Part shown: piece by piece, positions 7,505 through 63,507 of the stretch | How positions within the stretch are numbered: the first letter of the stretch is position 1 | How the letters are laid out: every line of letters begins with the position of its first letter | Assembly (NCBI RefSeq): GCF_020535245.1 | Contig: NZ_CP084910.1 | Span: 2,146,501 to 2,210,500, forward strand | Reading direction: 5' to 3' | Length of the DNA stretch: 64,000 nt | Origin: Asticcacaulis sp. AND118 | Lineage (GTDB): Bacteria > Pseudomonadota > Alphaproteobacteria > Caulobacterales > Caulobacteraceae | Made by a program: the position numbers and the translations under genes | The notes under the pieces: generated by a model | Database searches by the model: none | The model's input: only the letters and a program-made list of their open reading frames with translations | What the model was told of the DNA's origin: nothing

Positions 7505-8803
7505 CTAAGGATCGATCGCTTCGGCCTCATTGCGGATGAGACCCAGCGCCGCCCGCAACCGGTTGCGCGTGACATCCTGCAATTCCCCTGCCGCGAACAG
7601 GCGGACCGCGTCCCCCTGTTTCAGCAGGGGCAAGGCCGCGCGCACAGCGGGCGGCAAGGCCCTGATCCGGGTCTGATCCTCCGGGGACAGACGGCTCATA
7701 TGCCCCTTCGCCGGCACGATGTCGCCGCAAAGCGCATAAGCGGGCAATCGGAATCGTCCGTCCCATATGTCGCAGATTCGCGAAGGGTGTGCGCCATTGC
7801 GGGTCATGTCGCCCGGCTCGCGGCAGATCAGCCAGCCCTCGCCTACCGTTTCGACACGCGCCCCGCAGAGGGTGAAGCGCGTGCGGCCTTCGCGTGCACC
7901 ATCAATGATGCGCTCGATTTCGCTTTGGCGCGGCAGCTTCTCGCCGCCTCCGGCGCAGACGATCAGGGCCGAGAGAATGTCAGAGGATGGTAGTGTGGGG
8001 ACGTAGACGTAAGCCCCCTCCGGCGGGACTTCGCCCGCCCCCTCCCCCGTTTCGCTGCGCTCACAAGGGAGGAGAGAAACATCCTCCTCCCCTGCATTAG
8101 CGGGGGAGGTGTCGCGGCGATAGTCCGCGACGGAGGGGGCAATCCCTTGTTGCCGCACCCTTGCGCGCAGATAGGCCGGATTGGCATTGGCCGGATCGTC
8201 GACATAGGCCACGCCCGCGGCGGTCAGCCACTCGCGCAATAGCCCCCGCCCGATGCCCAGCAAGGGGCGCAGATAGAACATCCCCTCCCCCTGCGGCCAG
8301 AAGGGCGCGGGTGACCACCGTTTCGGCGCGCCGACCGTCGAGCCCTCCGCGCGCATGGCGGCGGATTCCGTTACGTCGTCAGCATTGTGCCCCAGACAGA
8401 GGACGCCGATGCCTTTGGCCCGCGCCCCCTCAAGGATAAGGTAATGCCGCGCCCGGCGCGCCGCCGCCTGCAACCCCGCCTTCGGCTTGTCGCCGTGCCA
8501 GCGCAGCACCGTCACCGGCAGACCGATCGTCCGCCCCAGCGCCTCGACGTCGCGCGTCCATCCGGTGCTCAGCGGATGGATGCCGTGATCGACGGTGAAA
8601 ACCTCCAGCGGACGCTGCCCCCACAACCACAGCAGCAGCAGCAGGGCAACCGAATCCCCGCCGCCGGATACGGCCACACCGACAGGGCGATCCGCGGGAC
8701 CGTTCAGATAGTCGGAAAAAAGCGAAAGGCTTGCGGCAATGTCCGGAAAGTCCTCCAGAACCGCCGCAAGCCTCGATTTCAGTTCGCCGGAAATTAAGCG
8801 CAC
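7505..8803 (-). CDS. tilS: tRNA(Ile)-lysidine synthase TilS with in-frame repeat insertion
   Basis: ATP-dependent ligase that converts the wobble cytidine of tRNA-Ile(CAU) to lysidine so that it reads AUA. The 432-residue product has the PP-loop SGGGDS at 46-51, the HNADD motif and the DDPANANPAYLRARVR segment that ends the catalytic domain. The GTG start overlaps the cpoB stop by 10 bp, so the two are translationally coupled. Odd: residues about 222-264 are encoded by a 129 bp GC-rich palindromic repeat that also occurs between genes at 60255 and 63371. It sits at the junction of the catalytic and C-terminal domains and keeps the frame exactly. The C-terminal domain beyond it is intact. Confidence 0.93.
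   Translation of the reverse strand: MRLISGELKSRLAAVLEDFPDIAASLSLFSDYLNGPADRPVGVAVSGGGDSVALLLLLWLWGQRPLEVFTVDHGIHPLSTGWTRDVEALGRTIGLPVTVLRWHGDKPKAGLQAAARRARHYLILEGARAKGIGVLCLGHNADDVTESAAMRAEGSTVGAPKRWSPAPFWPQGEGMFYLRPLLGIGRGLLREWLTAAGVAYVDDPANANPAYLRARVRQQGIAPSVADYRRDTSPANAGEEDVSLLPCERSETGEGAGEVPPEGAYVYVPTLPSSDILSALIVCAGGGEKLPRQSEIERIIDGAREGRTRFTLCGARVETVGEGWLICREPGDMTRNGAHPSRICDIWDGRFRLPAYALCGDIVPAKGHMSRLSPEDQTRIRALPPAVRAALPLLKQGDAVRLFAAGELQDVTRNRLRAALGLIRNEAEAIDP
8012..8140. repeat. Palindromic repeat element inside tilS (copy A)
   Basis: Outer ends are GCCCCCTCCG and CGGAGGGGGC, and the middle contains GGGAGGA facing TCCTCCTCCCC. It consists of two half-modules in opposite orientation, each similar to the half-modules of the intergenic copies at 60255-60402 and 63371-63507. 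Its length of 129 bp is a multiple of three and neither half introduces a stop in the tilS frame. Confidence 0.8.
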
Positions 8804-18034: not shown

Positions 18035-18112
18035 TCGTTCAGCATTACCCGTTCGCCGTTCACCGCGCAATCGGCAATTCTTGCCGCTTTGATTGGACTG
18101 ATTTTAGAACCA

Positions 18113-18238
18113 CGGAAAACACGGAAAGCACTGAAAAGGAGAATTTGGCCAAGACATCACCCCACAGCACACACCTGATGCCGATTAAAATTTCAGTGTC
18201 GCGGGTTCCGTGCTTTCCGTGTTTTCCGCGTTTAATCC
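18113..18238. repeat. Element with 19 bp terminal inverted repeats between ruvC and the TPR gene
   Basis: Perfect inverted repeats at 18113-18131 and 18220-18238, made of CACGGAAA-type units, enclose about 88 bp with no gene. A related structure with CACGAAC-type ends lies at 49340-49489. The remaining sequence of the 18035-18393 gap shows no gene. Confidence 0.7.
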
Positions 18239-60254: not shown

Positions 60255-60402
60255 TCCTCCTCCCCTGTAGCGCAGCGTACGGGCGAGGTGGCATTTTGAG
60301 CGTCAGCGAAAAATGACGGAAGGGGCGAAATTGGGGAGAATGCCCCCTCCGCCTCGACGCGCTACGCTTGCTCGGCACCTCCCCCGCGTTGCAGGGGAGG
60401 AT
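60255..60402. repeat. Palindromic repeat element between rcdA and thiE (copy B)
   Basis: Outer ends TCCTCCTCCCCTG and GCAGGGGAGGA, with inner GACGGAAGGGGC facing GCCCCCTCCG. It is made of two inverted half-modules similar to those in tilS (8012) and after efp (63371). It probably folds into a long hairpin that could end rcdA transcription. Confidence 0.8.
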
Positions 60403-63364: not shown

Positions 63365-63370
63365 CCCCCC

Positions 63371-63507
63371 TCCTCCCCTGTGAGCGCAGCGATACGAGGG
63401 AGGTCGCATTGAGCGTCGCGAAATGACGGAGGGGGCAACCCGTCCGTCGCACCGCCCCCTCCGGCCGGACTTCGCCGGCCAACTCCCCCGCTCACGCAGG
63501 GGAGGAT
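63371..63507. repeat. Palindromic repeat element between efp and suhB (copy C)
   Basis: Begins TCCTCCCCTGTGAGCG and ends GCAGGGGAGGATG, with inner GACGGAGGGGGC facing GCCCCCTCCGGCC and a GGCCGGACTTCGCCGGCC hairpin. Same family as copies at 8012 and 60255. Confidence 0.82.

Follow-up and report, generated by a model that had tools for sequence, protein, structure and literature searches.

A REP-like palindromic repeat carried in frame within the tilS interdomain linker of a few Asticcacaulis genomes

How does a dispersed palindromic repeat come to lie, in frame and without a stop, inside the gene of an essential enzyme? The question is raised by tilS, which encodes tRNA(Ile)-lysidine synthase, in a stretch of 64,000 nucleotides from Asticcacaulis sp. 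AND118 (contig NZ_CP084910.1, positions 2,146,501 to 2,210,500; hereafter the window). An earlier note, made from the sequence of the window, proposed that a segment of tilS resembles two intergenic copies of a palindromic repeat and is translated as about 43 extra residues between the two domains of the enzyme. The explanation we favour, at a probability of roughly 0.75, is that a tail-to-tail pair of modules resembling repetitive extragenic palindromes (REPs) entered the tilS linker once, in the ancestor of a small clade, and was kept as a tolerated linker. The features under discussion are as follows.

7505..8803, minus strand: tilS, tRNA(Ile)-lysidine synthase, 432 amino acids (aa), GTG start (open reading frame and profile matches)
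8012..8140, minus strand: repeat-derived in-frame segment of 43 codons, TilS residues 222-264 (blastn, repeat finding and module pattern)
8013..8073, minus strand: module 1, 61 nt, with CCTCCC hairpin, hairpin 2 GGCGGGCGAAGTCCCGCC and GGAGGGGGC end (pattern match)
8074..8084, no strand: spacer of 11 nt separating the two tilS modules (by subtraction)
8085..8140, plus strand: module 2, 56 nt, with CCTCCCC hairpin, hairpin 2 GTCGCGGCGATAGTCCGCGAC and GGAGGGGGC end (pattern match)
60255..60402, no strand: intergenic copy, head-to-head pair; the strict pattern fits its right half only (direct reading and pattern)
63371..63507, no strand: intergenic copy, head-to-head pair, used as blastn query; both halves too degenerate for the strict pattern

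The repeat within tilS

The identity of the gene is secure. TilS matches Pfam ATP_bind_3 (103.8 bits) and NCBIfam lysidine_TilS_N (104.6 bits, cut-off 93.6), its PP-loop residues S46, G47, G48, D50 and S51 are invariant among 41 aligned sequences, and the TilS fold was recovered as well. The gene is otherwise intact and gives the only tilS match in the 4.05 Mb genome. The segment in question measures 129 nt, a length divisible by three, and direct reading confirms that it is open in the tilS frame, where it reads APSVADYRRDTSPANAGEEDVSLLPCERSETGEGAGEVPPEGA.

The proposed kinship with the intergenic copies held as well. A blastn search with one of these copies (63370-63507) returned 45 matches in the genome, three of which are pieces within tilS (8013-8049, 8041-8074 and 8085-8140; 86-91% identity, E 1.2e-8 to 9.3e-7), and repeat finding in the window gave the same pairings (D15 at 89%, I2 at 91% and I20 at 89%). 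Further, both tilS halves fit a strict module pattern, CCTCCC N5-35 GGGGAGG N12-42 GGAGGGG, which has four matches in the window: three in tilS, counting an overlapping reading, and a fourth at 60342. With a GC content of 63%, the window might be expected to yield chance resemblances, and an assembly error could likewise create an apparent insertion; however, 50 Markov-1 simulations of the window produced no pattern match and the same feature is present in the genomes of three species, so that we take chance similarity and misassembly as refuted.

In the AlphaFold2 model, the repeat segment has low confidence (block means of the per-residue score pLDDT for residues 221-260: 68, 50, 50 and 47) and is flanked by two confident domains. 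The segment is probably translated as a floppy or disordered linker.

Anatomy and spread of the repeat family

Modules of the family share the layout TCCTCCC-loop-GGGGAGG-hairpin 2-GGAGGGGGC. The strict pattern matches the genome of the window organism (G000) 121 times, a count that bears out the dispersed nature of the repeat. The total takes in the overlapping tilS reading together with one or more doubtful matches to G-rich sequence (such as C1:2300432), and leaves uncounted those modules that have decayed beyond the pattern. A reversed-pattern control (31 + 26 matches in the same genome) is uninformative because a palindromic family fits the reversed pattern too. Sixty stretches yielded 110 modules of 47-73 nt, of which 108 are distinct, with 88 distinct hairpin-2 regions.

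The genomic context was read on contig C1, among the matches listed, for 70 clusters. Pairs make up 39 of these, 36 head to head and three tail to tail, the other 31 being single by the strict pattern. The tail-to-tail pairs are those of tilS, C1:1168075 and the doubtful match at C1:2300432. Seen against the usual arrangement, the tilS pair is inside out: it ends in GCCCCCTCC..GGAGGGGGC, with the GGAGGGGGC ends pointing outward, while both intergenic copies of the window end in TCCTCCCC..GGGGAGGA and have them pointing inward. For the 30 clusters with a strong codon signal on both sides, the neighbouring genes converge in nine cases, diverge in one and run in the same direction in 20.

Pairing in hairpin 2 is conserved while its sequence changes, as indicated by the comparison of real modules with mixed halves. 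The longest Watson–Crick stem averages 4.4 bp within a module vs 2.2 bp in mixed halves, and stems reaching 6 bp occur in 24 of 88 real hairpins vs 1.4% of 5000 mixed pairs. This test is stronger than folding hairpin 2 alone, which gave a weak signal against shuffles (mean z -1.7; 37 of 88 under -2). What keeps the arms of a hairpin matched when its sequence turns over completely is a question that the family raises.

Beyond this genome, 32 of 289 sampled genomes of the class have at least one pattern match, some being evidently G-rich sequence of another kind. The highest counts were found in G072, from another family (127), in the window genome (121) and in G026 (45). Within the window, Rfam gave no match at gathering scores.

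One gain or two in Asticcacaulis

The gene tilS is present in all 25 genomes of the genus examined, although the copy in G023 is split over two contigs. The repeat was found in three: the window genome, G012 and G017. All three share its starting codon and the tail-to-tail order of its modules. The window insert aligns with that of G017 at z 15.2 and with that of G012 at z 5.6, and none of 1000 codon shuffles did as well. Further, the window and G017 have in common a hairpin core, CGGGCGAAGTCCCG, which among the 110 modules examined from the window genome occurs in tilS only.

A tree built without the linker places the window genome with five repeat-free sisters, G001, G006, G011, G019 and G023 (support 100; the sisters together 99), and unites G012 with G017 (100). 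The preferred reading, which is not proven, is one ancestral gain followed by erosion in the sisters, and it rests mainly on the shared codon, the shared module order and the hairpin core shared with G017. According to this scenario, a tail-to-tail pair from a REP-like family of palindromes, patchily distributed yet widespread in Alphaproteobacteria, would have reached the interdomain linker of tilS, presumably by movement in trans, in the ancestor of a small Asticcacaulis clade, with a length and phase that preserved the frame. The segment would since have been carried as disordered, translated linker, would have been lost or eroded in the sister clade, and may later have been rewritten in frame by arm-to-arm flipping or conversion. 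A permissive site, rather than any demonstrated benefit, would account for its persistence.

Several observations weigh against this scenario. No clean empty tilS site was found; the sisters have linkers of 50 aa in which the trace of the repeat is weak, which leaves one gain plus loss unproven over two gains. When the first 17 codons are compared, G019 is the one sister to show a trace (z 4.5, 1 of 1000 shuffles), the other four reaching z 0.3 to 2.0 (44 to 337 of 1000 shuffles), and over the whole linker even G019 (z 1.95) does no better than the repeat-free outgroups L010 (2.2) and L011 (2.1). The rarity of the tail-to-tail order (3 of 39 pairs) implies more than the plain insertion of a standard unit. 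Finally, a search for Y1/RAYT-type transposases (PF01797) had no match in the window genome, while it detected them in five of 14 control genomes including Caulobacter vibrioides; such an enzyme was accordingly rejected as the mover of the repeat.

The main competing account is that the repeat entered a permissive spot in tilS twice, once in the lineage of the window genome and once in that of G012 and G017. The repeat-free sisters, with a trace that is weak by the outgroup control, are compatible with it, and so is the apparent readiness of the linker to accept repeats, a different one being found there in a Brevundimonas metagenome-assembled genome (L131). The isoleucyl-tRNA synthetase gene ileS, discussed below, was itself entered in several lineages. 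However, two insertions would have had to hit the same codon in the same rare tail-to-tail order, and to arrive at the core that the window and G017 share and that is restricted to tilS. We therefore consider two insertions rather unlikely, and retain a single ancestral gain as the favoured explanation.

Two side observations concern tilS outside the genus. The Brevundimonas repeat is in frame and dispersed, its 47-bp core recurring at five further places. Further, L162, a record titled Oceanobacillus, has a tilS product 35% identical to that of the window and falls among alphaproteobacterial matches; it is possibly mislabelled.

Mostly replacement rather than addition

Measured from LRxRVR to CAGGG, the TilS linker is 65 aa long in the window genome and 74 and 75 aa in the other two carriers, G012 and G017. 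It measures 57, 60, 60 and 62 aa in the outgroups L009, L010, L013 and L016. The carriers thus exceed the four outgroups by 3-18 residues and the sisters by 15-25. By these lengths, the repeat mostly takes the place of linker, and is not a plain gain of 43 residues. Of the earlier proposal, the in-frame position between two domains stands, but the word extra does not. In the suggested comparison with relatives, the sisters have a shorter linker without the repeat, and the outgroups have linkers that come close in length to that of the window.

Has the insert acquired a function?

It could be argued that the repeat was co-opted, so that TilS expression or function is tuned by its stable mRNA hairpin or by the linker as such. 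In support, the three inserts (window, G017 and G012) fold better than their dinucleotide shuffles (z -8.3, -7.2 and -4.6, respectively), even though their hairpin arms differ. However, folding of 24 head-to-head clusters from other places gave equally strong values (mean z -8.5 vs simple shuffles), which marks hairpin stability as a trait of the family. Sister species manage without the repeat, and the predicted order of the segment is low. Co-option is, on balance, improbable, and a tolerated linker remains the favoured explanation.

A comparison of G012 with G017 hints at a possible further process. Hairpin 1B of tilS in G012 is the reverse complement of hairpin 1A in G017 over 30 of 30 bases, and hairpin 1A of G012 matches the reverse complement of 1B of G017 at 22 of 23. 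An in-place inversion between the arms would explain this match most simply. Other copies could also have supplied the sequence by conversion, since the two kinds of loop recur across the family, in 3 and 14 of the 110 modules examined from the window genome. More generally, the linker may be self-rewriting, flipping or conversion between inverted modules swapping hairpins in place and in frame with no new insertion; we put this forward tentatively. If true, the linker of an essential enzyme could be replaced wholesale without a fresh insertion.

In-frame copies in other genes

The suggestion that the family can enter genes and be tolerated in linkers and loops gained support from the other clusters. 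Five of the 70 examined lie within genes in frame: those in tilS, ileS, a membrane-protein gene and two paralogous small genes. Codon scores flagged six clusters as having the same frame on both sides; tilS, ileS, the membrane protein (C1:1273408) and a small protein (C1:1986980) held on inspection, and C1:1168075, which was not flagged, was added by homology as a paralogue of the latter. C1:749461 (before an Aconitase_C gene) and C1:2288173 (before rnpA) were classed as intergenic, since a plausible start follows each of them. Long open frames over C1:775903, C1:1122255 and others were rejected as well, because the repeat precedes a plausible start or codon scores favour another frame. Homologues elsewhere of ileS and the other repeat-carrying genes are without the repeat. 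At the membrane-protein site, the proteins of the window genome and G011 are 33-40 residues longer than the other 11 homologues aligned.

In ileS, the insert sits between WVKFPVK and SVVIWTTTPWT, where the solved isoleucyl-tRNA synthetase 8c9e aligns seven residues. The repeat is present in five of the 28 readable loci (of 30), namely the window genome, G011 (half), G009, G020 and G040, and seven of the 28 have a bare form of 46 residues. It is missing in close kin of G009 (G004, G013 and G014) and of the window genome (G001, G006, G012, G017 and G019). G040 belongs to another family, and its congener G044 is without the insert by coordinates, which makes the G040 insertion a separate event. 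The idea that every in-gene copy is read in one shared frame was rejected, as the ileS copies of G020 and G040 begin in another frame. In a further 44 Caulobacteraceae, chosen by eye from 249 for weak or broken matches, none of the 43 readable ileS loops had two module arms. Judged by these sequence comparisons, the ileS loop is a recurrent site, entered in several lineages including one of another family.

The loop is a very permissive spot in general, its length from WSPVE to PWT ranging from 46 to 92 aa across 71 Caulobacteraceae loci, mostly of non-repeat sequence. Separately, in a multi-copy family of small proteins with a C-terminus like GWADKQAQMREQRAARTGKWPDGTPY, the linker looks partly repeat-built in several species and paralogues (L099 and L085; L259, L266, L270 and L273 of G012; L256, L257, L263 and L264).

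Comparison with known repeat systems

Published accounts describe three systems of interest. CGTC-tagged REPs are single hairpins of 20-40 bp, mostly from Alphaproteobacteria, with an unpaired terminal CGTC tag, a CCA tail and A-T at the first two stem positions; in-gene copies are reported, including in tRNA synthetase genes, and no dedicated transposase is known for them (PMC3733652). The present family resembles them in lying mainly after genes, in having in-gene copies and no known transposase, and in the dominance of head-to-head pairs (36 of 39), tail-to-tail pairs such as that of tilS being the rare exception. In 74 of 108 modules hairpin 2 has a CGTC at its foot; this CGTC is internal and flanked by the G-rich end, whereas the REP tag is terminal. 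Of these 74 CGTC-bearing modules, on which both counts were made, 56 share the CCA tail of the REPs, but only 24 have A-T at the first two stem pairs. Our modules are also longer (47-73 nt) and have a second hairpin, CCTCCC..GGGGAGG, in every case by design of the pattern, and the hairpin compared with that of the REPs comes in 88 sequence versions among the 108 modules.

Rickettsia palindromic elements (RPEs) are about 150 bp or less and insert in frame within conserved genes, and a guanylate kinase carrying one is reported to be active (PMC2229807, PMC10969869, PMC3767692). The likeness drawn in the earlier note is one of habit, seen here in tilS, ileS and three more genes. The host is different, five of 70 clusters are in genes vs nearly half of RPEs according to one review, and CGTC-tagged REPs are closer in anatomy. 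Caulobacter CcrM-associated intergenic repeats (CIRs), known from Caulobacter and Brucella, measure about 110 bp, form two hairpin arms, carry GANTC and are reported as strictly intergenic (PMC2229807, PMC10969869). The two-arm build is similar; however, GANTC occurs in two of 108 modules, which rules out CIR identity, and unlike CIRs the family has in-gene copies.

We file the repeat with the REP/RPE kind while assigning it to neither family. As in-frame REPs and RPEs are already published, the tilS case in Asticcacaulis is an extension of a known kind; no report of the family in Asticcacaulis or of a repeat inside tilS was among the open-access papers listed. In-frame palindromic insertion is hereby extended to the tRNA-lysidine enzyme of this genus, with ileS as a second, recurrent site. 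Orthologous sites that are filled, possibly eroded or empty in relatives make the neutrality of such inserts testable.

Elsewhere in the window, positions 18108-18233 hold an imperfect inverted repeat with 28-nt arms, 89% complementary and 70 nt apart.
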